A stretch of DNA of 64,000 bases, taken from NCBI GenBank assembly GCA_016916535.1, contig CP070276.1, forward strand, positions 2,790,001-2,854,000, in the 5' to 3' direction. A program made the translations under genes and the position numbers. Source of the DNA: Dysgonomonadaceae bacterium zrk40. Lineage in GTDB: Bacteria; Bacteroidota; Bacteroidia; Bacteroidales; Dysgonomonadaceae. This document shows positions 31,958-63,131 of the stretch, in pieces. Under the pieces are notes generated by a model. The model was not told the origin of the DNA, searched no databases, and worked only from the letters and a program-made list of their open reading frames with translations. Position 1 is the first letter of the stretch; every line of letters starts with the position of its first letter.

Positions 31958-32321
31958 GGTTTGGGTTTTTACTTTTTCCCATTTGAGCATGAATCGGTTG
32001 GTAGGGTTGTCGTTCGCATAACATGGGAAGCTCATCCTATATTCTAAGTTAATACCACCCTTATATCCACTCCCATAATAATTGGAGTGGATATAAGGGT
32101 GCAATAAGGGTGCAATAAGGCTAGAGCTTTTCAAAACCCTGTCTCGTCATGAAATAGCTTTCTCTAAATGTAAATTAAAAGCAGGGTTATGAACAAAAAA
32201 AGAGCAATCCGGGGAATTGATGACCGACCCTTTACATGCGATTAATGATATAAAATTGTTATTTGCCAAACTTGAATTTAAATTATTCACAAAGAGAGAA
32301 AGGCCCTTTGCGAAAAAACGC
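31958..32321. other. Intergenic region holding a palindromic repeat
   Basis: Between two divergent genes. Apart from the palindrome and its tandem tail (32057-32124) I find no gene or RNA in it. Confidence 0.5.
32057..32124 (+). repeat. Palindromic repeat element, copy 1
   Basis: A perfect 17-bp stem, ACCCTTATATCCACTCC (32057-32073) and its complement (32084-32100), flanks a 10-base loop. Two direct copies of GGGTGCAATAA (32097-32107, 32108-32118) and GGCTAG follow. The same stem and tail recur in opposite orientation at 60548-60612. There is no T tract, so it is not a simple terminator; it resembles a REP/MITE-like element. Confidence 0.75.
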
Positions 32322-49574: not shown

Positions 49575-51722
49575 ATGCAACCAAATTTTAAAGATATTGA
49601 CATTCAGAACGATGGTTTCTATACCGTCGACGTGAAGGAGTGGGCCGAGAAGAATGAGGTCAAGGCCGACTGGCTTACACCCGAGCAGATTCCTGTGAAG
49701 CCGGTCTACACGAAGGAGGACCTCGAAGGGATGGAGCATCTCAACTATGCTGCCGGTGTGGCTCCCTATTTGCGTGGACCCTATTCCACTATGTACGTGA
49801 TGCGTCCCTGGACCATCCGCCAGTATGCCGGCTTCTCCACCGCCGAGGAATCGAACGCTTTCTATCGCCGAAACCTCGCTGCAGGTCAGAAAGGGCTTTC
49901 GGTAGCCTTCGACCTCCCCACGCATCGTGGCTACGATGCCGACAACGAGCGTGTGGTGGGCGATGTCGGCAAGGCCGGCGTTTCCATCTGCTCGGTAGAG
50001 GACATGAAGATCCTCTTCGATGGCATTCCCCTCAACAAGATGTCGGTCTCGATGACCATGAACGGAGCCGTGCTGCCCGTCCTTGCCTTCTACATTGTTG
50101 CAGCCCAGGAACAGGGTGCGAAGCTCGAAGAGATGGCCGGAACCATCCAGAACGACATCCTCAAGGAGTTCATGGTGCGCAACACCTACATCTACCCGCC
50201 CAAGTTCTCGATGAAGATCATCGCCGACATTTTCGAGTTCACCTCACAGAAGATGCCCAAGTTCAACTCCATCTCCATCTCCGGCTACCACATGCAGGAG
50301 GCGGGAGCCACTGCCGATATCGAGCTGGCCTACACGCTGGCCGACGGTATTGAGTACCTGCGTGCCGGCATCGATGCCGGCATCGACGTGGATGCCTTCG
50401 CACCCCGTCTCTCCTTCTTCTGGGCCATCGGTATGAACCACTTCATGGAGATCGCCAAGATGCGTGCCGCCCGTCTGTTGTGGGCCAAGATCGTGAAGAG
50501 CTTCGGCGCGAAGAACCCCAAGTCGATGGCGCTGCGCACCCACTCGCAGACCTCCGGCTGGTCGCTCACCGAACAGGATCCCTTCAACAACGTGGGACGT
50601 ACCTGCGTAGAGGCGATGGCAGCAGCCCTGGGTCACACCCAGTCGCTCCACACCAACGCGCTGGATGAGGCAATCGCGCTGCCGACCGATTTCTCGGCCC
50701 GCATTGCCCGCAACACCCAGATTTACATCCAGGAGGAGACCCAAATCACCCGCCAGGTAGATCCCTGGGCCGGTTCCTACTACGTGGAGTCGCTCACCCA
50801 GGAGCTGGTGGACAAGGCATGGGAACACATCCAGGAGATCGAGAAGCTGGGCGGTATGGCCAAGGCCATCGAAACCGGCATCCCCAAGATGCGCATCGAG
50901 GAGGCGGCAGCCCGCACCCAGGCACGCATCGACTCCGGTTTGCAGGCCATCATCGGTGTGAACCGTTATCGTCTCGACAAGGAGGATCCGATCGATATCC
51001 TTGATATCGACAACACGGAAGTGCGCAAGCAACAGGTGGAACGGCTCAACAGCCTCCGTGCCGGTCGCGACAACGCCGTGGTAGAGAAGGCACTAGAGGC
51101 CATCACTCGTTGCGTGGAGAGTGGCCAGGGTAATCTGTTGGAGCTCTCGGTGGAGGCTGCCCGCGTTCGCGCCACGCTGGGTGAGATCTCCGATGCATGT
51201 GAGAAGGTGGTAGGACGTTACAACGCAGTAATCAGAACAATTGCAGGAGTGTATTCATCAGAATCAAAAGCAGATGCCACGCTGGAACAGGCGCGTGCGC
51301 TGACCGACCAGTTCGCCCATAAGGAAGGGCGCAGACCCCGTATCATGGTTGCCAAGATGGGCCAGGACGGACACGACCGCGGTGCCAAAGTAGTCGCCAC
51401 AGGCTATGCCGACTGTGGTTTTGACGTGGATATGGGACCCCTGTTTCAGACACCCGCCGAGGCAGCCCGTCAGGCAGTGGAGAACGACGTCCATGTGTTG
51501 GGTGTCTCCTCGCTCGCTGCCGGACACAAGACCCTCGTGCCGCAGGTGGTGGCAGAGTTGCAACGTCTCGGCCGTCCCGATATCGTGGTGATTGCCGGTG
51601 GGGTGATTCCCGCACAGGATTATGACTATCTCTACAAGGCTGGAGTGGCGGCCATCTTCGGCCCCGGCAGCTCGGTGACCAAGTCGGCTTGTGACATCAT
51701 GCACATCTTGATGGAGGAGTAA
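49575..51722 (+). CDS. mutB: Methylmalonyl-CoA mutase large (alpha) subunit
   Basis: Catalytic B12-binding subunit, 715 residues. The TIM-barrel half has [26 protein letters not shown] (in part, about 70-97, with the active-site Tyr) and [19 protein letters not shown] (about 318-336). The C-terminal cobalamin domain carries [23 protein letters not shown] (in part, about 595-617), where His of DGHDRG ligates cobalt, and [12 protein letters not shown]. With MutA it forms the heterodimer. Ends the operon at a clear terminator. Confidence 0.97.
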
Positions 51723-51745: not shown

Positions 51746-52579
51746 TTATTCCGCTTTCGGTACGATCAGGAGTAGATTGTGCCGGAAGCGGTTTTTTTCA
51801 CTTTCAACAGGACCCAAATAACTCGGTCTTAGACCTCCCGTATCAATCACAAATTTCTGGAAAACAATCCCCGGGTCAATTGCCCATATTTTTAAAACAT
51901 GTTTTCCTGGTAGCTCCACATCGTGTGATGAAACCTTTATTTTTATGTGGTCTCCTACCGATTTTGTCCACCAACCTGCATATTTATAATCTGGAACTGT
52001 TTCGCCTTCATTCATGTTGATTATTTGAGGTTTCTCGTTGTCGATCGCGATGGCATATTTCAACCCTCCTTGATTTTTGAAATCCTGGGTTGGTGAAAGG
52101 TAGGCCTCAACTTTAAAATCTCCGGAACTGAATGATGTAAATTCATATTCAACTCTTGGCGAGTTCTCTAGGATCGATTGACTCTCAGCGGTAACCGGTT
52201 CAATAATGAGTGACGAGTTTGTTCGTCCAAGGTTTGGAACTACTGTCCAATGAATCTCTTTCTTGTCAATTTTTCTGGTGTAATGAGCCGCCTCGAATGC
52301 AATTACTCCTTCGTTTTCGATAAAGCCAGAGACTGCTGGTATCTCGTTTCGAATAGGTACCTGCACCCTATATTCCTTTCCGGCTCCGGAAATTAATATT
52401 TCTCCCGTAACCTCTCCTTTGGGGGCTTTGTTCCAATCAATGCTTACATATATTTTTTCATTGAACCTTGTAGAACCTGCTTCTGACGATAGTTTTATCC
52501 AATCTTCCCTGCCCTTGATCGTATATTGTAATTCATCCCGGCCACGGTTGACAATATCGATGTAATAATCCTGATTATT
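51746..52579 (-). pseudogene. GH115 alpha-glucuronidase, 3' part (cut by IS3-family element)
   Basis: C-terminal 277 codons of a GH115 gene, including the GH115 C-terminal beta domain. The open frame starts at the element boundary with NNQDYYIDIVNRGRDEL, which continues VFDPLN from the 5' part (54005 onward), and runs on without a stop through GFIENEGVIAFEAAHYT and GWWTKSVGDHIKIKV to the end at 51746. It has no start codon of its own before 52366. The ATT at 52577-52579 is the presumed target duplication. The gene's end overlaps the mutB terminator on the other strand. Confidence 0.9.
51751..51798 (+). terminator. Intrinsic terminator after mutB
   Basis: Stem CCGCTTTCGG / CCGGAAGCGG (51751-51760 and 51782-51791; one mismatch) followed by seven T (51792-51798). 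The hairpin lies inside the end of the GH115 coding sequence on the opposite strand. Confidence 0.8.
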
Positions 52580-52641
52580 CTATAATATACCCCGTAATTT
52601 GTACCACTATCTAAGCAAATAAAAAAGCTTATATTTGTGTT

Positions 52642-52938
52642 ATGAACAAGTCAAGAAGAAAACATTCAGCGGCTTTCAAGGCAGAGGTTGCATTAGCAGC
52701 CATCAAAGAACGGGAGACCCTATCTGAATTAAGTGCCCGTTATGGTATTCACCCCACTGTGATATCCACATGGAAAAATGAGTTTTTGAAACGTTCAGAA
52801 GAGTTATTCTCGAAGCATGGCCCCAAGAGTGAAGCTGACTTTGAGAAAGAGCGACAGGAGCTCTATGCGAAAATAGGAGAACTGGAGATGCAGCGAGACT
52901 GGTTAAAAAAAAAGTCGAAGCAGTTGGGCTTGGAATAA
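52642..52938 (+). CDS. IS3-family OrfA
   Basis: Helix-turn-helix protein of 98 residues (transposase_8 type): KHSAAFKAEVALAAIKERETLSELSARYGIHPTVISTWK (in parts, about 7-46), then a leucine-zipper-like coiled coil (about 70-93). A run of nine A near 52905 lies before the stop and would serve as the -1 slippage site that makes the OrfAB fusion transposase. A TATATTTG box (52630-52637) lies immediately before the start. Confidence 0.9.
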   Translation: MNKSRRKHSAAFKAEVALAAIKERETLSELSARYGIHPTVISTWKNEFLKRSEELFSKHGPKSEADFEKERQELYAKIGELEMQRDWLKKKSKQLGLE

Positions 52939-53762
52939 TGGAACGACGTGACCTAGTTTCGAGAGATGATCGTTTAAGCCTACAGAGCCAATGTGATCTA
53001 CTGGGAATCAGCAAATCCGGTCTTTACTATTTGCCAAAAGGAGAAAGTGATGAGAATCTTGAGATTATGAAGAAAATGGATAAGTACCATCATGATCATC
53101 CTACTTACGGAGTTCTGCAAATGCAAGACTACCTGTTCGCACTGGGTTTTATAGTGAATCACAAGCGAGTGAGACGCCTCATGCGTAAGGCCCAAATAAT
53201 TGCTCAATATCCAAAGCGGAATTTGAGTAAGTTGGGACTGGTCGAGTACATTTATCCCTATCTGCTTCGTAATCTCAATATTGACCACCCAAATCAGGTC
53301 TGGGAGATTGACATAACGTACATACCCATGGACAAGGGCTTCATGTATTTAACGGCAATCATAGACGTGTACAGTCGTTTTATTGTTGGCTGGGGCCTTC
53401 ATAACAGCCTGCATGGAGAAAACGTGCTTGAAGTACTTGAGGCAACAATACAAGAGCATGGTGTGCCTGAGATCGTCAACTCAGATCAGGGAAGTCAGTT
53501 TACCAGCCCGGCATGGGTAAACAAGCTTAATGAACTTGGAATCAGCATCAGCATGGATGGCCGTGGCAGAGCAACGGACAACATCTACATCGAACGGTTT
53601 TGGAGGACATTGAAACAGGATCATGTTTATCCGTTTCCGGCGGAAAACGGTACCACTCTTTGGAAAGGAATCAGGGGGTTTATGAATCATTACAACAAAA
53701 TGAAAACCCACCAGGGAGTCGGAAGACGAACGCCGGAAAGTATTTTCAAGTTAAGCGCCTGA
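52938..53762 (+). CDS. IS3-family OrfB (DDE transposase)
   Basis: Integrase-like catalytic part of the transposase, 274 residues, in the -1 frame relative to orfA (start and stop overlap as TAATG). The DDE residues are Asp in WEIDITYIPM (about 117), Asp in IVNSDQGSQFTS (about 177) and Glu in YIERFWRTLK (about 213). An HTH_21 segment (HPTYGVLQMQDYL) precedes the core. Intact, so the element may be able to move. Confidence 0.93.
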   Translation: MERRDLVSRDDRLSLQSQCDLLGISKSGLYYLPKGESDENLEIMKKMDKYHHDHPTYGVLQMQDYLFALGFIVNHKRVRRLMRKAQIIAQYPKRNLSKLGLVEYIYPYLLRNLNIDHPNQVWEIDITYIPMDKGFMYLTAIIDVYSRFIVGWGLHNSLHGENVLEVLEATIQEHGVPEIVNSDQGSQFTSPAWVNKLNELGISISMDGRGRATDNIYIERFWRTLKQDHVYPFPAENGTTLWKGIRGFMNHYNKMKTHQGVGRRTPESIFKLSA

Positions 53763-56073
53763 CTTTTTTATTTGTAAACAAATATACATGTACCAAATGA
53801 GACATCAAGCTATAAATCCCTGACGGGTTTTTGAAAAAATCTCCACTCTTAAAAGAGTAGTATTTTTCCAAAAAAGCTTGACTTACTCATTTGTTTCAAG
53901 AAAGGTTGGTTTACAAATGAAAAAAACAGAAAGTATAAAAAAATGAGAGAATTATTTTAGTTTAAAAACCCTGCTTAGACGGTACAGAGAATAGGGAGTA
54001 TTAAATTCAAAGGATCGAAAACAGGCATTCTATGACTGAAAGACCAATCTGCCTCCACGTCGAGCCAACCCCATTGAGGTGTGTCGCCATATTCAATAAA
54101 GTAACCCAGTTCGGCTGGTTCTGGAACCTGAACGTAGGATACGGCAGGCATTTTATTTAAGGGGGGGTGATTCCAATTGGTGTAACCAATATGTGTTTGC
54201 GACATCATATGTTTCCACTTACCATCCTCCAGCTCATGATATTTTTGGGAGAGCGCTGCATCTTTTTCAAACAACACTTTCACTTTATCGGCATAATAAT
54301 TGGCAGAGGCAGCACCCCGAATAGCATAATACTCATTCTTGCCAGCTGCTACATACATTTCATTGAGGTTGGCACACAGTTCGATAGGGGAGTGAACCAA
54401 TTGATAGTATGCAGATTTGTATTCCGCTGATAGCTGTTCATATATCGATGAGCTTTTGTTTAGTAGTTTCCTGAACTCTTCAACAATCCGATCAGCTTCT
54501 CTGTAATTCTCAATGCTATATGTGGTAGCAGTTAACATTTCGGGAGTTCGGCGTGCATTGTATTTGGTGTAAAGTGAAAGCATTTCGGCGATTTCATTTG
54601 CATGTTCGTTCCCAAATTGTTGCTTCGCCCATTTAACATAAAAGTCTGGTATATCTTCAGCTTGTATCGCTTCGGGATCCCATGCATAATCGAGGAAAAA
54701 ACTGATGGGGAACTCCATGGGCTTGATATCGCCCACATTGACGATCCAAATTTCATCAACTCCATGCTCATAGGTGAGCTTCATTTGTTCCCATACTCTT
54801 TCAATCTGGGTTATGTTTAGCCAACGATAAGATATGGGAGCTCCCACGTAATCGAAATGGTAATACATTCCAAACTTTGAAGAGGCGTTACGTTCATTTT
54901 TCTTTGGGAGGTAACGAATATTTCCCCAGTTGTCGTCGCTAAATAGAACCGTGATGTCGTCATCAACCCGCATTCCCTTGTTGTAATAGTCCTGCACTTC
55001 TTTATAGATCGCCCATAGTTGGGGTGTCTCTTCGGCTGGTTTCCCGGTAACATCAGAAATAATGCTGCGCTGGTCAGCAATAATGTTTTGTAAAAGATCA
55101 ACCGCCGTCTCTTCCGACATACCTTCATCACCATCCCCACGCATGCCAACCGTTACAATAGTTTCATGATTTCCTACCCTTTCAAAACCAGTGCGCCAGA
55201 ATTTTTGTAATGTCTCTTTATTTGTTTTGTAATTCCATTCTCCACCGTCAAACACACTCCATTCGTTATGTGCCCTTGTCATCGGTTCGTGGTGTGATGT
55301 TCCCATCACAATTCCATATTCATCGGCTGTTTGCGGATTCAAGGGATCATCAACATAGAACATGGTAGGGAGCCACATGGAAGGCCATAAATAATTGGCT
55401 TTGTTTCTTAAAAGCAGTTCAAATATTTTTTCATAACATTGATGATTGATCCCCCCGAATTTTTCAACAGCCCAATTTCTGAATGCTGGAGATTCATCAT
55501 TTATAAAAATACCACGGTATTTCACGGAAGGGCTGTTCGAAAGGTAGTGGCATTTTTCTATGTAAATTTCATCATGCTTCTCAACAGGAACATCAGCCCA
55601 CCAATACCATGGAGAAACACCCATCTTATGCGAAAGTGTAAATACACCGTAGGCTGCTCCACGCCTGTCGCTGCCAACAATAACCAACGCTTGTGCAACA
55701 CCCGGGAAAGGATTTTCTATTGTTTGGATGATGAATCGTTCCCACTGACCTTTCAGGTCGTCAATATTTAGTTTTTTCTCTTCTACTAGTTTATTAATCA
55801 ATCGATTTCTTCCTGCCGTGGCAACGATTATTATATTGCTGCCCTGAAAGTTTTCTACATCAGAAACTAAGGGTCTTTTCCCCGAAACCATTTCAATGTC
55901 ATTCGAAAGAAATGCTACAGACTTCTTGACTAAAATGTTTTCAGACCTGTCATAAACAATTTTCGCTGTTTCTCCTTTACTTGTTACTGTAAAATAACTG
56001 CTTAATTTGTCAACCTTAAACTCCACGTTTATTTGTGAGTAGGAGAGATGCGGTAAGAATAATAAGAGTAATA

Positions 56074-57107
56074 ACGTGAGTTCGGGATAAGAAAAGCATA
56101 AAAAAAGTTGTGATATAGGGAGATTATTTGTATATTTATAGCTGATAATCAAACAAATAACAAACATCAGCCCTATGATCACAACAGACAAAGTTATTGA
56201 AATATTTTGTATTGCCGACGATTTTTGTGCAGAATATGAGAATGAAATTCAGAATCATCAACTTCAAGCCGGGGGTACAACTAAAAGGAGAAACAGGAAA
56301 ACGCAAATGTCCCAGAGCGAGATTATTGCCGTGATGGTCTGTTTCCACTGCGGAACCTTCCATAATTTCAAGAATTATTACCTGTTTTATATTTGCAAAC
56401 ACATGAAGAGCTATTTTCCAAATGCCGTTTCCTACAACCGTTTTGTCGAGTTGCAACCCAGGGTGATTGTACCTTTCATGCTCTTGCTCAAACTCTTTGG
56501 ATTTGGTGAATGCACAGGCATTACATATGTGGATAGCACTCCCATTAAAGTATGTCATAACAAGCGTATACACTCGAATAAAGTATTCAGGGATCTGGCA
56601 CAAAGAGGGAAAAGTACGATGGGCTGGTTTTTTGGATTCAAGCTTCATCTGGTCTGTAACGAAAAGGGTGAATTGCTGAATTTCTCTCTCACAAAAGGCA
56701 ATGTCGACGATAGAAACCCTGACGTAATCAATGTTCTTACCAAAGATCTTTTCGGTAAACTATATGCAGACAAGGGTTACATCAGCACAAAGCTCTTCGA
56801 GATGCTGTTTGACCAGGGTGTTCATTTAGTGACCGGTATACGCTCAAATATGAAAAATTCCCTGATGTCATTCCGCGACAAGATTCTCTTACGCAAAAGA
56901 TCTGTAATTGAGTCCATCAATGATGAACTGAAGAATATCTGCCAGATAGAACATTCAAGGCATCGTTCCACACATAATTTCATCATGAACATAATTGCTG
57001 CATTGGTGGCATATTGTTTCTTTCCCAAAAAGCCTTCAATCAAATTTGAAGTGGAAAAGTCAAGTCAATTAACCATTTGGGGATAATATGTTATCCCGAA
57101 CTCACGT
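56074..57107 (+). mobile_element. IS982-family insertion sequence in the GH115 signal peptide
   Basis: A 1034-bp element with perfect terminal inverted repeats ACGTGAGTTCGGGATAA (56074-56090) and its complement (57091-57107), flanked by TAATA direct repeats (56069-56073 and 57108-57112). One intact transposase gene. The match of the flanking bases to the GH115 frame independently confirms the target duplication. Confidence 0.95.
56175..57086 (+). CDS. IS982-family transposase
   Basis: DDE transposase of 303 residues, full length for IS982. Catalytic candidates are Asp in GITYVDSTPIKVC (about 118), Asp in KLYADKGYISTK (about 198) and Glu in RSVIESINDELKN (about 246); the family motif GWFFGFKLHLVCNEKGE is at about 154-170. 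It starts 84 bases inside the left end and stops just before the right inverted repeat. No frameshift seen. Confidence 0.93.
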   Translation: MITTDKVIEIFCIADDFCAEYENEIQNHQLQAGGTTKRRNRKTQMSQSEIIAVMVCFHCGTFHNFKNYYLFYICKHMKSYFPNAVSYNRFVELQPRVIVPFMLLLKLFGFGECTGITYVDSTPIKVCHNKRIHSNKVFRDLAQRGKSTMGWFFGFKLHLVCNEKGELLNFSLTKGNVDDRNPDVINVLTKDLFGKLYADKGYISTKLFEMLFDQGVHLVTGIRSNMKNSLMSFRDKILLRKRSVIESINDELKNICQIEHSRHRSTHNFIMNIIAALVAYCFFPKKPSIKFEVEKSSQLTIWG

Positions 57108-57184
57108 TAATAATATTTTCTTCATTTTTAAAGTAATATATGTTTTGAACGTATAGGTGTGATTAAGGCTCAGTTTTCATTCTG

Positions 57185-57610
57185 CTATTCATATTTACTT
57201 ATTAATCTTATTACCTCTTTTTCTAATGCTTGATGAATGTCCGGAAAAGTTAAATCACTTGGTTGCTCTTCAAACAATTCAATTCTTTCAATTTCCGATT
57301 CTGGCAGATCGTCCAGTTCTTCAACTTTTGCATAAAAGACTTTCCCGTAGTTTTTTATATCGTTTGATTCAACCGAATAGCAAAACAATGGTTCAATGGC
57401 ATAGTGCTTTGCTCCCGTCTCTTCATACAATTCTCTCTTTGCAGTATCAAATATACTTTCATTTTCCTCCCTGTGTCCACTTGGAACTACCCAACCACTT
57501 CTTTCCCTGTGCTTCACGTAAATCCATTTGTTCAAATATTTAGAGAAGATGATCGCATATTTCAATTTTGATTTATCAAATTCTTCGTTTCCAAAAATTT
57601 CAATTTTCAT
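57185..57610 (-). CDS. NUDIX hydrolase
   Basis: A 141-residue NUDIX protein that would hydrolyse a nucleoside diphosphate linked to another group. The NUDIX box GHREENESIFDTAKRELYEETGA (in part, about 45-67) keeps all consensus residues (G-x5-E-x7-REL-x2-E-x2-G). The start overlaps the stop of the upstream pseudogene (ATGA). Substrate unknown; resembles 8-oxo-dGTP pyrophosphatase-like members. Confidence 0.87.
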   Translation of the reverse strand: MKIEIFGNEEFDKSKLKYAIIFSKYLNKWIYVKHRERSGWVVPSGHREENESIFDTAKRELYEETGAKHYAIEPLFCYSVESNDIKNYGKVFYAKVEELDDLPESEIERIELFEEQPSDLTFPDIHQALEKEVIRLISKYE

Positions 57611-58032
57611 AATTTTAAATCGCTGGTAAAAGTGTAAGCTACCCCTTTTAAGGGTCTAAGATAGTTCAACATCATTGATTGGTCAAACTTCGATTTAATT
57701 TGTTTGTCATCCGATTTTGTGGAAGCAATTTTTCTAATAATTTCAGTTTGTTCTTCGGCTGTCAACTTTTCAAACGCTATTAGTACCGTTGATTCATTGA
57801 ATGTTTCTAAAATTTCTTTCTCTGTAATTTTTTTCAACTAAGTTAACAAATAAAGTGTTACTGTAACCCTGTCGCCACCGCTTTTGTTGATTGCCTTCCT
57901 TATTTTCTCATTGACAGAAATAAGTTTGTCCTGTCCTGATATTGTAAAGAGACTAATACGGTCAATTTTGTAATTGTCAATTGTGCCTGATACCTTCAAT
58001 GCACCCCACTTCCTAATGGTATGTGCATGATG
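57607..58032 (-). pseudogene. DUF1905/OmdA-like (YdeI) protein remnant
   Basis: Two in-frame halves of a small protein separated by a TAG at 57838-57840. The upstream half (open from 58032, no start codon) reads KVSGTIDNYKIDRISLFTI...LISVNEKIRKAINKSGGDRVTVTL, typical of a DUF1905 domain. The downstream 76 codons (FEKLTAEEQTEIIRKIASTK) resemble the OmdA/bacteriocin-protection C-terminal domain that normally follows. The 5' end is cut by an in-frame stop at 58033-58035. Reading: a nonsense mutation plus 5' truncation; a TTG at 57835-57837 could still start the second half. Confidence 0.65.
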
Positions 58033-58050
58033 TTATGCGCTGGCATTGAG

Positions 58051-59388
58051 CTATATATATTCCACGGCATTTATAACAATTCTCCTGTACACGGTCAATG
58101 CAGGGAAACCCTTGTCGGTTATTTCAAGAATAAGATGTATCGTTTTTCCTGAGGCATCAGAAGGTACCACTATTTTACATTTGGATGCAGCACACTCTAC
58201 AACGCTTGTAGCACCTTTGTATGTACTTGGTTCATCGTAGACGAACCAGTTATAATCCAGTTGATCTCCATCAGGATCTTTTGATCCGGAAGCATCAAAC
58301 GTCAAAACATCACCAGCTTTGGCACTTCTATAGAGGCACTGCAATGAATTGTCACCATCTACAATTGCTACAGGGTGATGGTTCACGGCATAATAATCAT
58401 CTGTAGTGGTCCACAGCATGCGGGCAGCAAAATTATTCCAGATATGCTGTTTCCATTTGTTTATGGCTGCGATGCCCTCTTTTGTACTGCCATACATAAG
58501 ATAAGGGTCATATTGGGTCTCATCTTTGCCACTCTTGACGATGAAATCCATGCCACGTATTCCACTGACCTTCTTCGTCGAGAACCGTCCGCCCCAACCC
58601 CCAAAATCAACATGCTCCGGAACGTTTAATCCGTTGGCATACACATGTAGGAAAGAAGGAGTGTCGCCCTCCGTAGCCCAGATCCTGTCAGGGTAATGGT
58701 TCCCTAAAGGAGCGATGTCCTGCACGTTGTTTCGTGTCCAGTCATCGGACGGAGCCCATCCATAGATTTCCTTGTTGCGAATATAAACAATGTCAGGAAA
58801 GTTCTTCGCAATCCATGCTCCCGCATCATCCTGCCCAAGCACGTCATAAATACGTATTTTCTTTACGAAAGCGCTTACTTCCTTTTCGCTTCGTGTATGC
58901 TTCACTTTCCAGAGGGCCTGTGCCACAGTATTCATGCCACCCCATCCGGCAACCCAAACCGGGCGGCTGTCATCTTTCCGATCTACCGCCGAAACAATCA
59001 ACTCCGACCCCGGCGAGTCTTTGCCTGCTCCCACACCCGACATATTGGATTGAGGCTGCCCCTGCATGGTGATCGACCTTAAATAGCCTGCATCCGGAAA
59101 ACCGACAGCATGATTCTTCAACCGGGGTAGAACTTCTTCATACCAGTCGATAACCTCAAGAATCTTAGCCGTCTTGTTTGGGTCGTTAACCCAGACCTGT
59201 GAACTGACAAGACCTTCAATGTCAATGGCATCTGAGCATACCAGGAGGTGAATCATTGATTGTATATCATCGGGGTCAGTACCACCAAGGTCGGTAGTGA
59301 CAATCAGCCTTTGTTTGTCGCTCTTGTCCAGTTGTGCTGAGCTATATGTTGCGCACAGAATAAAGGCAATTAGAAAAATGTTTTTCAT
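58051..59388 (-). CDS. DUF1593 secreted nucleoside-hydrolase-like protein
   Basis: Exported protein of 445 residues with signal peptide (about 1-18, TYSSAQ). The N-terminal 330 residues are a DUF1593 (PF07632) domain with a nucleoside-hydrolase-like start RLIVTTDLGGTDPDDIQSMIHLLV (in part): Asp residues of TTDLGGTDPDD would bind calcium. A C-terminal Ig-like domain (about 340-445, FDASGSKDPDGDQLDYNWFVYDEP) resembles a PKD fold. Family members occur with polysaccharide-degrading genes (Sde0182-like), which fits the GH115 neighbour; substrate unknown. Confidence 0.85.
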   Translation of the reverse strand: MKNIFLIAFILCATYSSAQLDKSDKQRLIVTTDLGGTDPDDIQSMIHLLVCSDAIDIEGLVSSQVWVNDPNKTAKILEVIDWYEEVLPRLKNHAVGFPDAGYLRSITMQGQPQSNMSGVGAGKDSPGSELIVSAVDRKDDSRPVWVAGWGGMNTVAQALWKVKHTRSEKEVSAFVKKIRIYDVLGQDDAGAWIAKNFPDIVYIRNKEIYGWAPSDDWTRNNVQDIAPLGNHYPDRIWATEGDTPSFLHVYANGLNVPEHVDFGGWGGRFSTKKVSGIRGMDFIVKSGKDETQYDPYLMYGSTKEGIAAINKWKQHIWNNFAARMLWTTTDDYYAVNHHPVAIVDGDNSLQCLYRSAKAGDVLTFDASGSKDPDGDQLDYNWFVYDEPSTYKGATSVVECAASKCKIVVPSDASGKTIHLILEITDKGFPALTVYRRIVINAVEYI

Positions 59389-59403
59389 ATTATATATCTT
59401 TGA

Positions 59404-59590
59404 TTATTTCTGCAGTACCGTCACAAAATATATATTTTTTCCACCATTGGATTTAAGTTGTTGAACTAAATTAGTCAATTCTCCAGCGTAAAAAGTTGTT
59501 CTTCCTACAATCGGTCTTGCAGTTCTTGTAATGACATACACATCTTGTTGTCCATGAATTATGCTCACTCCACGATCGTTTTCAATGCTT
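59404..59590 (-). pseudogene. Dihydrofolate reductase/RibD C-terminal-like gene remnant
   Basis: A short open stretch without a start reads QDVYVITRTARPIVGRTTFYAGEL...NLVQQLKSNGGKNIY, closely matching RibD_C/dihydrofolate-reductase-like proteins (VYVVTR...GRTTFYTGDL...LKxxPGKNI), then ends early at 59404-59406. The expected first and last thirds are missing. Decayed gene. Confidence 0.5.
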
Positions 59591-59810
59591 CAATCTGTTG
59601 TTTCGCAAATTCAACTGCTCCTGGGTCTTCCAAATTTAGCATTTTCCATGTCACCTTTAAGATTATATCCATGAGCAATGTTGCTTAATACAACTCCGTC
59701 CTGAGGGTCAATCTTTTCGGCTTACAATAGCGCTTTTATTCCTTTGTCATATTTGCCTGTCAGTAGGTAGGTAATTGAAATATTCGATAAACTTTCAATA
59801 TGGCTTGTTT
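59565..59810 (-). pseudogene. TPR-containing gene remnant
   Basis: Minus-strand fragments SLSNISITYLLTGKYDKGIKALL, (stop), AEKIDPQDGVVLSNIAHGYNLKGDMENAK and, after a frame change, LEDPGAVEFAKQQIEALKTIVE look like tetratricopeptide repeats from the tail of a longer protein. One in-frame stop and one frameshift make it a pseudogene. The original enzyme is not identifiable. Confidence 0.45.
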
Positions 59811-59836
59811 TATGGCTGCTTGTTAGGTTACGTTTT

Positions 59837-60229
59837 TTATTTATTTAATCTTGAATGCAGGGGCCACCAATTTGTTTTAGTCGCGTTAAGTGCTTTATAA
59901 ATCTCATATTGACAAAGAACTGAATCATGTCTACCCTTGCATGTTTTTCCTTTAGGATCGTTCTTATAGAATCCATTCAATATTGGTATTGCCTTTTCTG
60001 AATGAATTTGACCCAATGTCCAAATTGCGATATGTGAACAGTCTACAGGTGAATTCGTCGTATCAAGCAAATAGGCTATCAAAGCATCTTCAGCTTTGCC
60101 CGGATATCTTTCTTTAACTACATTGATATTATTCTGAACATCAATATCTATCCATATATACATGACGACATATCCAAGAAGTAAGAGAGTTATAAGACTC
60201 CCACTAAGAATTAAAATTATTTTCTTCAT
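59837..60229 (-). CDS. Small membrane-anchored HEAT-like protein, unrecognised
   Basis: Hypothetical protein of 130 residues: one N-terminal membrane helix (about 4-26) and a soluble part of about 100 residues with a HEAT-like helical pair (ALIAYLLDTTNSPVDCSHIAIWTLGQI..., given in part, about 48-75) and three cysteines. I do not recognise the family. It stands in a decaying region but shows no stop or frameshift itself. Confidence 0.55.
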   Translation of the reverse strand: MKKIILILSGSLITLLLLGYVVMYIWIDIDVQNNINVVKERYPGKAEDALIAYLLDTTNSPVDCSHIAIWTLGQIHSEKAIPILNGFYKNDPKGKTCKGRHDSVLCQYEIYKALNATKTNWWPLHSRLNK

Positions 60230-60547
60230 GGTTACTCTATTTATTTTTTCAAAAATAATTATACCAGCAAAGTTATCAATATTTTGAATTAAAATTCAAT
60301 ACATTAACCTTTTAATGTGCTGTTATTGGTTTTTTGTACATTGTTGCAATTGCGAATGTATCATTGAATCTATCATCGTGGACACAGAGCGTTGGATTAG
60401 CCATTTTGAGCGGAAATTGACTGTACAGCAATAAAGTTCCAGCTCAACATCAAACTGCTTTGATGCCATATAGGTTCATGATTTCTGTGCAAAGTTGGTG
60501 TTTCCGATATCAGGACGAACAGGACGAGACAGGGGATTTGCTGCCTC
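60230..60547. other. Intergenic stretch, no gene seen
   Basis: AT-rich sequence upstream of the palindromic repeat. I see no convincing coding region, RNA or promoter pair. Confidence 0.4.
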
Positions 60548-60612
60548 TAGCCTTATTGCACCCTTATTGCACCCTTATATCCACTCCCATATTTAACGGA
60601 GTGGATATAAGG
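60548..60612 (-). repeat. Palindromic repeat element, copy 2 (inverted relative to copy 1)
   Basis: CTAGCC, then TTATTGCACCC twice, then ACCCTTATATCCACTCC (60571-60587), a 10-base loop and GGAGTGGATATAAGG (60598-60612). It is the reverse complement of the tail-and-stem order found at 32057-32124; the loop and one end of the stem differ, so the copies are not recent duplicates. Confidence 0.75.
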
Positions 60613-60815
60613 ATAGAATATGGAGACAATAAGGATAGACCAGTCCATTACCTGTCAATTTTCTACTCAATCAGATTTTTTGTAACCGATTGTACCTTCA
60701 TGATGTCCTATCACCATAAAATGAAAAAGCATTCGATGCCGGGTGTCCCGATGGCGCGCATAAGGATCCCTCCGCTCAATGCTTCATGGTTTTCCATTCA
60801 ACAACAAAAAGTGAT

Positions 60816-63131
60816 ATGATACAGAAAATAATTCTATTCTTTCTTCTCGGTGGAATACTTCTGCCCATGCATGCACAAATTCAGGGCACGGTAGTCGATA
60901 CCGAAAGCAACCCCATCTCGTTTGCCAACGTGGCACTCTATACTGTGCCGGACTCTATGCTGATCGCCGGGACCATTACCAACGATGAGGGTCACTTTTC
61001 CCTCAATACTGAGATTCTTAGCGATGCCTTTATAAAGGTCTCGTTTATCGGATATGAAACCAAGGTGGTGGAACCAACAGATGATCAATTCATCGCTTTG
61101 AATCCCGAAACCACGGAGCTGGGCGAGCTGGTTGTCAACGGCGACCTGCCCCGGATACGGGTGCGGAACGATGCACTGGTAACGACGGTCGAGAACACGG
61201 TGCTGAGCAAGGCGGGCACTGCCGATGATCTGTTGAAGCGATTGCCTGCTGTGACGGGCGACGATGGTGCCTACGAGATCTTCGGCAAGGGAGCCGCCAA
61301 GATCTACATCAACAATCGCGAGATGCGCGACCCTTCGGAACTCGACCGCATCAGCTCGGCAGATATACGGGAGGTGGAGATCGTCTACAATCCCGGTGCA
61401 CGCTACGATGCCTCGGTGAAGGCGGTGATCCGCATCCACACCGTGCGCAAGGTGGGCGACGGCTTCGGCTTCGACCTGCGCTCCACTTACCTGCAGACCG
61501 AGAACACCGACCTGCGGCAACAGCTCAACGTGAACTACCGCAACAACGGCTGGGATCTCTTCGGAACCCTCAAGTATGAGCGCTATGCCTACTTCCAGGA
61601 AAGCATCATCCGTCAGTCCACCTATGTGGATACCCTCTGGACACAGGAAAACCAGCTACGTGTAGATGGACTCTCCAATCCCCTTACCGCCGTGGCCGGC
61701 ATCAACTATGAGTTCTCACCCAAGCAGCAGTTGGGGATGAAGTACACCCTCACCACTTTTCCCGGCAAGAACCGGGACATTGCCTCCACCAGCAGTGATG
61801 TCTATGCCAACGGCCAGTTTTTCGACCGGCTGGTGAGCCGCGACAACCAGCAGCACGATCTGCAGCCCCGCCACCGGCTCAATGGCTATTACAGCGGCAT
61901 CTTTGGCAAGTTGACAGTCGACTTCAACGGCGACATCTACCGCAGCACTCAGACCACCCGGTCGAACATCACCGAGAGTAGCGAGGAGCAGGACGACCGT
62001 GCCATACGTTCCGACAACCGGATCTACAACCGGCTCATCGCTACCCGTACCATCCTCACCCATCCACTGTTGGGGGGTACCCTCTCGGTGGGGAACGAAT
62101 TTACCCGTACGCTGCGGGAGGATGATTACCAGACAAGCAATCCGATGATCCCTTCCTCCAGTACGGAGATTCACGACCAGAACCTCTCCTTCTTTGCCGA
62201 GTACAACCGTGCCACACCCATCGGGCAGATCACCGCCGGCCTGCGTTATGAAGATGTGTTCTGGGACTATTTCCGTGACGGGCTGCGTGACGATGAGCTG
62301 AGCAGGAGTTATGCACAATGGTTTCCCGCACTCACCTACAGCAACCGCTTCGGCAACGTGCAACTGCAGATGAGCTATTCGGTAAAGACGGTTAGACCGG
62401 CTTACTGGCAAATGGGCAGCAACATCTTCTATGCCAACCGCTATACCATGCAAACCGGCAATCCCTTCCTGAAACCCACAACCCTGCACGATGTCTCGCT
62501 GATGAGCTCCTGGCGCTTCCTGCAGCTTGCGGTATCCTGGAAGCAGGAGAAGAATGCCATCATACAGTGGGCGGAACAATTGGAGGATAACCCGGCAGTG
62601 ACACTCTTGTCGAATATCAACATCCGGCAGATACCCAGCCTCTCCGCTTTCCTCACGGCATCGCCCAAGGTGGGGATATGGAGTCCCCAGGCAAGCATCG
62701 GTTTCACTGCACAGCAGTTGGAGATGGAGATACGTGGCGAGCAGGTGAAAATGAACCGGCCCATACCCATCGCATCGTTCAACAACTCCTTCTCATTGCC
62801 CAAAGGGTTTCTGGTCACCCTCGACTCCCGCTTTCAGGGCAAGGGGTTCCAACAGAATTTCCGAACCACACGGAACCAGTACGTTGTCGATGCCGGCATC
62901 ACCAAATCATTCTTCGAGGAGAAGCTCTCGCTTACCCTCAAGGGTCACGACCTCTTTCACGGCCGCAAGATGGGCATCTTCGCCTTCAACGACCGGCTCG
63001 ACATCTTCCAGTACTCTGAGTGGGACAGTCGCGAGCTGGAGTTAACGGTACGCTACAAGTTCAACGCGACCAAGAACCGATATAAGGGCAACGGTGCCGG
63101 CGACCGGGAGATCAGCCGCATGAGCAACTGA
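60816..63131 (+). CDS. TonB-type outer-membrane beta-barrel protein
   Basis: Outer-membrane protein of about 771 residues. The signal peptide (1-20, ending MHAQ) is followed by a carboxypeptidase-regulatory-like domain (about 21-100, IQGTVVDTESNPISFANVALY), a plug-like domain (about 110-210, ADDLLKRLPAVTGDDGAYEIFGKGAAKIYINN) and a long C-terminal barrel (outer-membrane beta-barrel family 3 type). No SusD-like partner is nearby, so it is not a classical Sus pair; ligand unknown. ATG 60816 is preferred to the upstream in-frame ATG 60786 because it starts the signal peptide. Confidence 0.88.
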   Translation: MIQKIILFFLLGGILLPMHAQIQGTVVDTESNPISFANVALYTVPDSMLIAGTITNDEGHFSLNTEILSDAFIKVSFIGYETKVVEPTDDQFIALNPETTELGELVVNGDLPRIRVRNDALVTTVENTVLSKAGTADDLLKRLPAVTGDDGAYEIFGKGAAKIYINNREMRDPSELDRISSADIREVEIVYNPGARYDASVKAVIRIHTVRKVGDGFGFDLRSTYLQTENTDLRQQLNVNYRNNGWDLFGTLKYERYAYFQESIIRQSTYVDTLWTQENQLRVDGLSNPLTAVAGINYEFSPKQQLGMKYTLTTFPGKNRDIASTSSDVYANGQFFDRLVSRDNQQHDLQPRHRLNGYYSGIFGKLTVDFNGDIYRSTQTTRSNITESSEEQDDRAIRSDNRIYNRLIATRTILTHPLLGGTLSVGNEFTRTLREDDYQTSNPMIPSSSTEIHDQNLSFFAEYNRATPIGQITAGLRYEDVFWDYFRDGLRDDELSRSYAQWFPALTYSNRFGNVQLQMSYSVKTVRPAYWQMGSNIFYANRYTMQTGNPFLKPTTLHDVSLMSSWRFLQLAVSWKQEKNAIIQWAEQLEDNPAVTLLSNINIRQIPSLSAFLTASPKVGIWSPQASIGFTAQQLEMEIRGEQVKMNRPIPIASFNNSFSLPKGFLVTLDSRFQGKGFQQNFRTTRNQYVVDAGITKSFFEEKLSLTLKGHDLFHGRKMGIFAFNDRLDIFQYSEWDSRELELTVRYKFNATKNRYKGNGAGDREISRMSN

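Follow-up and report, generated by a model that had tools for sequence, protein, structure and literature searches.

A gene for a GH115 xylan alpha-glucuronidase in Dysgonomonadaceae bacterium zrk40 lies in three pieces, parted by two unrelated insertion sequences of the IS982 and IS3 families. It occupies part of a 64,000-nucleotide stretch of contig CP070276.1 (G000:C1:2790001-2854000 in our own numbering of genomes, G, contigs, C, and loci, L; hereafter the window) in a genome of 3.47 Mb assembled into 3 contigs. We give a probability of roughly 0.88 to the account as a whole, in which the gene was acquired within an A+T-rich island and then broken by the two insertions into a young pseudogene.

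One gene in three pieces

The three GH115 pieces (Table 1) all lie on the minus strand, and each is open with a length that is a multiple of three, the third when counted with its tail (51746-52576; 831 nt, 276 codons and stop). Joined, they give 6 + 688 + 276 = 970 codons with a sole, terminal stop. The first-pass annotation, made from the letters alone, had joined the same segments into one open frame without a break, and its 970 codons are right as arithmetic. Its GH115 assignment also holds: the frame holding piece 2 scores 496 bits against the Glyco_hydro_115 domain (PF15979; Pfam cut-off 27) and piece 3 scores 200.6 bits against GH115_C (PF17829; cut-off 24.1), which places both in their families.

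Pieces 2 and 3 were searched separately by tblastn against 99 fetched loci; piece 2 matched all 99 and piece 3 matched 94. Among the best 12 matches per piece, seven homologues carried both pieces with a piece 2 match reaching residue 688 (L038, L039, L040, L041, L042, L045, and L047), and in all seven the two pieces lie on neighbouring codons; in L040 the piece 3 match starts at piece-3 residue 2, still in register. Because piece 3 continues in register in homologues, no codons were lost or gained at the IS3 junction, and the contiguity of the large pieces excludes chance as the source of the split gene. The IS3 insertion follows residue 694 of the joined frame and parts the region aligning to domains A-C from the C-terminal region. 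The IS982 insertion splits the signal peptide behind codon 6. Read across that junction, MKKILL followed by LLLFLPHLSYSQ resembles the signal peptides of L038-L041 and L044.

Conservation was examined on piece 2, using columns filled in ≥ 90% of rows after seven divergent rows had been dropped. Piece 2 retains 91/91 columns that are invariant in 89 homologues and 161/167 at the 95% level, where seven control sequences retain between 158/168 and 165/166. All 16 catalytic-domain mutant or contact residues named in the excerpted account of BoAgu115A (4C90) are present in piece 2, namely N205, D206, W249, H275, R328, D332, Y373, K374, E375, D396, N398, Y420, H422, D424, Y425, and N462 (BoAgu115A numbering, placed on the alignment by our own count).

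Table 1. Features of the disrupted GH115 locus and its surroundings, in window coordinates
Feature	Position	Strand	Description
GH115 piece 1	57108-57125	-	18 nt, 6 codons: start codon and MKKILL of the signal peptide
GH115 piece 2	54005-56068	-	2064 nt, 688 codons; remaining signal peptide and part aligning to domains A, B (catalytic), and C; PF15979
GH115 piece 3	51799-52576	-	region ahead of GH115_C and GH115_C beta-sandwich domain (PF17829)
Host-derived 3' tail of the GH115 frame	51746-51798	-	stop and ~16-17 codons antisense through the mutB terminator
IS982-family insertion sequence	56074-57107	+	1034 bp, one of 13 identical full copies
IS982 transposase	56175-57086	+	303 amino acids; NF033520 268.1 bits (cut-off 130)
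Target repeat TAATA, left copy	56069-56073		
Target repeat TAATA, right copy	57108-57112		
IS3-family insertion sequence	52581-54004	+	~1424 bp; ends TATAATA.../...TTAA
IS3 orfA	52642-52938	+	98 amino acids, HTH_Tnp_1
IS3 orfB	52938-53762	+	274 amino acids, rve; NF033516 239.7 bits (cut-off 160)
Target repeat ATTC, left copy	52577-52580		
Target repeat ATTC, right copy	54005-54008		also final bases of GH115 piece 2
mutB, methylmalonyl-CoA mutase large subunit (presumed)	49575-51722	+	left neighbour
TonB-linked outer-membrane-type protein (presumed)	60786-63131	+	right neighbour, 781 amino acids
A+T-rich island	51799-60675		8.9 kb, in the T-run of the mutB terminator
Relic of XerA/integron-type tyrosine recombinase gene	60344-60467	+	internally deleted

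Two unrelated insertion sequences

The element in the signal peptide belongs to the IS982 family by its transposase score above the NCBIfam cut-off, its ACGTGAG ends, its length, and its TAATA target repeat. Besides one 90% relative, the genome holds 13 full copies, which show zero differences over 1034 bp. Nine of these are flanked on both sides by the same 5-base repeat and one by the same 6-base repeat, and the flanks of three are unequal. The ends of the same element occur at 97-100% identity in five other genomes (G025, G033, G011, G004, and G034).

The IS3 element is the sole full copy in the genome. To set its ends we used copies from elsewhere in the genus: alignments with L119 (96%) and L121 (87%) begin and end at the same query bases. 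Only orfB exceeds the NF033516 cut-off; orfA alone scores 44.5 bits, under it. The two genes meet at 52938 and a run of nine A lies at 52905-52913, a layout in which a -1 frameshift may join them, as in other IS3 elements. Four copies elsewhere were compared by eye and showed 4-base repeats at two loci (AATT at L119, ATTC at L120) and none at L121 or the damaged L122. Target repeats in the IS3 family are short, 3-4 bp, and TG...CA ends are usual without being defining. The window element has such a repeat, ATTC, which would read TTC if the element's end sits one base further out, and its ends are TATAATA/TTAATACT rather than TG...CA, both here and in L119.

The first-pass annotation had the TAATA repeat right and read the second, ATTC, one base short as ATT. 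Its larger claim, that two unrelated elements entered a whole gene separately, is borne out by the different families, by a target repeat proper to each element, and by the contiguity of the pieces in homologues.

We considered whether reads from the multi-copy IS982 element had been misjoined, so that the junctions exist in no cell. Thirteen identical copies are the sort of repeat that breaks draft assemblies, six IS982 end matches in relatives start at contig base 1, and the unequal flanks at 3/13 copies would fit such an error. Yet matching target repeats stand at both junctions (TAATA; ATTC), both flanks belong to the same gene in phase, the single full copy of IS3 offers nothing to be confused with, and the assembly has only 3 contigs. 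We regard misassembly as highly improbable.

The two elements differ in how well they can be dated. The IS982 insertion looks recent, and this is well supported because 13/13 full copies are identical. The age of the IS3 insertion is only loosely bounded. Between 4.1% and 5.3% of random substitutions in these codons give a stop, so that a 50% chance of a stop needs 13-16 substitutions and a 95% chance needs 55-71, or 1.9-2.5% divergence (most of the tail excluded, indels ignored). With no stop present, neutral divergence since the first break is limited, at the 95% level, to at most ∼1.9-2.5%. This is a weak clock, and it dates the first break, whichever insertion made it; copy identity is the stronger sign of recency, for IS982 only. 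Of the earlier claim that both insertions were recent, the IS982 part is upheld and the IS3 part becomes this upper bound.

Other IS982 copies bear marks of rearrangement. Two opposite-facing copies, L004 (G000:C1:1512061-1513094) and L005 (1836903-1837936), have swapped target repeats (TTATA/TAATA and TAATA/TTATA), and at bases 1501-1502 of L214, a G035 locus, one copy's left flank meets the right flank of the other. Because the repeats are swapped and the flanks meet in G035, L004 and L005 seem to have recombined, inverting ∼324 kb, or to have been swapped by the assembly. A third copy, L009 (G000:C1:18165-19198), has unequal flanks (TATTA/TTTTA), and none of the 13 copies is its reciprocal partner. 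Two copies (L004 and L012) adjoin a dispersed, partly palindromic repeat of ∼110 bp (L004:1397-1510; window ∼32056-32139) that recurs in at least 12 other places in the genome and at more in G035. As to the IS3 group with TATAATA.../...TTAA ends (L119, L120, and L121), its left end is common to relatives of ∼67% identity (L144 and L136). Isolated stretches of IS3 left end and inverted right end occur at G012:C27:11048-14161 and G004:C22:11223-14274, their starts 3010 bp apart in both, as if they were parts of some larger unit.

A probably acquired island behind mutB

The broken gene lies in an island between two genes that we take, from their proteins, to be mutB and a TonB-linked gene. The genes of the island (GH115, NUDIX, orf76, Sde182-like, and orf130) are all on the minus strand, with a G+C content (GC) of 0.33-0.47 compared to 0.585 for mutB and 0.551 for the TonB-linked gene. 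Along the window, GC is 0.54-0.59 at 47-52 kb, 0.33-0.46 at 52-61 kb, and 0.50-0.57 beyond. GC at third codon positions (GC3) is 0.38-0.40 in GH115 vs 0.74 in mutB and 0.73 in the TonB-linked gene.

mutB was found in 31/38 other genomes, and loci reaching 0.3-1.6 kb were fetched for 29. The TonB-linked gene stands directly behind mutB in four of these (G028, G016, G015, and G022), its match starting 133-206 bp on; in three more it is adjacent but convergent (G034, G024, and G005), and in the remaining 22 the TonB match is absent or only a fragment within the fetched sequence. At the four empty sites, GH115 is absent from that place, and the terminator stem is followed by a T-rich run and then GTAACC. 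In the window, 51798 is the last base of the stem and T-run, and TTTTTTGTAACCGATTG picks up again at 60676, where the G009 and G011 matches also begin. Comparison with relatives at the locus had been proposed by the first-pass annotation; it showed that the four with the empty site lack the gene there and pointed to acquisition, which that annotation had not considered. A hairpin with 42-nt arms, 81% complementary, lies just within the right boundary of the island (60546-60639) and has a weak likeness in G009 and G011.

The closest homologue of the window gene is 78% identical. Among 60 other genomes searched, 15 have a GH115 match, with a top identity of 52%. In a tree of 97 rows (quick method, with three of the 99 loci left out because their matches were short and some other rows flagged as long-branched), the window gene groups with L041, the Indibacter locus L038, L040, L039, and L044 (supports 97, 98, 97, and 100), whereas the paralogue from this genome sits apart, as do all 10 rows contributed by the genus's other genomes. 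The gene, of Cyclobacteriaceae-like type, therefore looks acquired, judged from these comparisons, and its source would be a distant relative.

A native gene, old in the lineage and lost in relatives, would leave no acquired island to explain. Several genomes of the genus carry GH115 genes of a different type, lineage-specific loss is common, and low GC is also found elsewhere in the window. Against this stand the GC3 contrast with mutB, a clade separate from every genus row, the direct adjoining of mutB and the TonB-linked gene in four relatives, and an island boundary that removes GH115's own end. Tree, empty site, and composition together led us to rule out native origin, which we consider very unlikely.

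The boundary is visible in the gene's last codons. Codons 954-970, the 17 that follow GPVES, cover 51749-51799 on the DNA of the mutB terminator, a 17-pair stem (51751-51791) followed by a T7 run (51792-51798) that a scan ranked as the longest-stemmed terminator-like site of the region. The ten homologues compared end 4-6 residues past the GPxES motif (GPPQS in L046). Matches extend to query base ≥ 792, that is, through the terminator stem, in 8/38 other genomes (G011, G034, G024, G018, G006, G003, G005, and G008), and G011 has a near-identical hairpin behind mutB. Because homologues stop sooner, the tail sits on the terminator, and other genomes match through its stem, the tail is, by this comparison, host DNA, and the last 17 of 970 codons are not GH115; the earlier assumption that all 970 were ancestral fails here. 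Annotators should be warned that piece 3 ends in a host terminator, so that a 970-residue "ancestral" protein carries a false tail.

A recombinase relic at the far side of the island

Near its TonB side the island holds a relic of a tyrosine recombinase gene. Window positions 60344-60447 match the 5' part of such a gene in G011 (76% over 104 bp, E 7e-17), and the next 17 and 12 bp match two further parts of it in order (E 0.03 and 0.4 alone). The G011 gene is open for ∼300 codons, and a TonB-linked gene, 88% identical, is found ∼0.5 kb away. The G011 recombinase scores 242.8 bits against the broader model NF040815 (cut-off 220) and 234.1 against the integron-integrase model TIGR02249, under the cut-off of 265. 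That this recombinase moved the island is a reading drawn from its position.

Related arrangements occur elsewhere in the genus. In G009 the TonB-linked gene is 3.4 kb from mutB, and a recombinase fragment lies between it and three antisense open reading frames (ORFs), chosen visually in a six-frame listing. In G013 an 84% recombinase copy lies 14.6 kb downstream of mutB; nine of ten picked ORFs in the first 6 kb past mutB are on the minus strand. After these the ORFs lie mostly on the plus strand, further recombinase matches among them; three ORFs next to the 84% copy are again on the minus strand, and beyond it come only poor, reversed fragments of the TonB gene. G021, G018, and G033 have a 76-84% recombinase copy at a second place, beside a GC-rich gene run. 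Extra DNA is also found in the mutB-TonB slot of G009, and probably in those of G013 and G033.

With all island genes pointing away from the relic, we tried an integron proper as a candidate. A crude attC scan of five stretches (R-box pair search, no covariance model) found 0 exact pairs in each and, with one mismatch allowed, 1, 1, 0, 1, and 2 pairs, against shuffled means of 1.32, 3.22, 0.49, 0.84, and 0.89 (maxima 5, 10, 3, 3, and 4). The integron label was not adopted because the recombinase is under the cut-off and the scan did no better than shuffled sequence. The G013 stretch has no direct repeats of ≥ 24 nt that might serve as recombination sites, and an Rfam scan of the window at gathering thresholds returned one tRNA and nothing else.

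A bolder reading would make the T-run of the mutB terminator a standing gene-capture site of the genus, at which a XerA-type recombinase inserts foreign A+T-rich genes, mostly in one orientation and without recognisable attC: integron-like but of its own kind, with the window as a dead copy whose farthest gene is GH115. The many plus-strand ORFs and further recombinase matches (25-56% identity) in the G013 stretch speak against it, and we hold it to be doubtful. The recurrent filling of this slot beside a Xer-type recombinase nonetheless merits follow-up.

Fate of the enzyme

According to excerpts of PMC3879575, three C-terminal deletions of BoAgu115A (longest product residues 1-665) all left activity unmeasurable; each protomer's substrate cleft is there proposed to be lined by its partner's C-terminal domain. 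Excerpts of PMC9063842 likewise give the dimer a role in GH115; they also present BtGH115A as a presumed monomer, so that the dimer argument does not hold for every GH115 enzyme. Either insertion alone should abolish the secreted enzyme, and the window's GH115 enzyme is very probably dead, as read from its gene. The paralogue (2503749-2505632; 51% identical, of the genus type, with an open frame of 851 codons) may have made the loss harmless.

Piece 2 could still be expressed as an IS982-GH115 fusion, in which case the shortened A-B-C product might undergo export and retain part of its function, such as binding sugars. The frame for it exists: 56191-53975 on the minus strand, 738 codons from TTG (or starting at an in-frame ATG at 56167), begins inside IS982, runs openly into GH115 in phase, retains the hydrophobic N-terminal stretch LLLLLFLPHLSYSQ, and stops 30 nt into IS3. 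IS1187, of the IS982 family, is reported in excerpts of PMC7335449 as a mobile supplier of promoters in Bacteroides, and one TAnnTTTG motif lies at 56196 on the correct strand. However, TTTG is absent from the 32 bases ahead of that motif, TAnnTTTG occurs 40 times on both strands of the window, no activity could be measured for BoAgu115A truncated at residue 665 (PMC3879575), and piece 2 is without the entire C-terminal beta-sandwich domain. Such a fusion is improbable, and the motif evidence makes IS982 a weak candidate as promoter donor for GH115.

Proposed arrival and loss

Taken together, comparison suggests that a Cyclobacteriaceae-like GH115 gene arrived in an A+T-rich island, into the T-run of the mutB terminator. 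A XerA/integron-type recombinase, whole or broken at the TonB side of the slot in G011, G009, and the window, would have done the insertion. The island junction would have removed the last few GH115 codons, and the frame therefore ran on into the terminator. Later, in either order, IS3 would have separated the A-C part from the C-terminal part, and IS982, in the burst that left 13 identical copies, would have split the signal peptide; both insertions together would have produced the young pseudogene.

Several points weigh against this account. Both junctions are known from one assembly of one strain of the species, and the IS3 insertion, with its single full copy, is not datable by copy identity. 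Equally low GC recurs in the window at 10-12 kb and 18-19 kb, and we therefore use composition as supporting evidence only. Direct, same-orientation adjacency of mutB and the TonB-linked gene is seen in just 4/29 relatives' mutB loci. A single 20-row group (support 88) takes in both the window clade and the main clade of the genus, and any donor named would be tentative, with a best homologue at 78% and only two of the five nearest records named Cyclobacteriaceae. G011 has its mutB on one contig and its recombinase on another.

That insertion sequences inactivate genes is well established, and gene decay by insertion is an ordinary phenomenon. A literature search pairing GH115 with insertion sequences returned no papers, and none of the listed titles on IS982 in Bacteroides-type bacteria, GH115 structures, pseudogenes in polysaccharide loci, integron integrases and XerA, or mutase genes as integration hotspots concerns this locus. 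The locus serves as a tidy illustration of a gene gained and then lost, with an empty site in relatives, a foreign-looking gene, a boundary in its last codons, two insertions, and an open paralogue. Its account of how the gene came and went is unusually full, and it makes a good teaching case.

Comparison with known systems

The window gene shares the PF15979 and PF17829 domains with 4C90 and with 4ZMH (SdeAgu115A). The region ahead of the C-terminal domain is present in the window gene and 4ZMH, whereas 4C90 has no match to it. Unlike either of these, the window gene is in three pieces, with its end residues and stop supplied by host sequence.

The IS982 element was compared by family features. 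The family is described in excerpts of PMC7335449 as having inverted repeats starting with AC, a length of ∼1 kb, and direct repeats of varying length. The window element shares the ends starting with AC, the short target repeats, and a transposase above the NF033520 cut-off; it is 1034 bp long, compared to 1028 bp for IS1187 of Bacteroides fragilis. The IS3 element resembles its family in the orfA/orfB pair, the helix-turn-helix and rve domains, the orfB score above the NF033516 cut-off, and the 3-4 bp target repeat, and departs from it in its ends and in the ∼240 bp past orfB, which have no listed family.

Like chromosomal integrons, the mutB-TonB slot has a recombinase of integron/Xer kind at one end and A+T-rich genes, many pointing away from it, with content that varies between genomes. 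Unlike them, its recombinase is under the TIGR02249 cut-off, several neighbouring ORFs are just 12-48 bp apart, attC-like pairs stay within the shuffled range, and the G013 stretch includes ORFs on the plus strand and additional recombinase matches.

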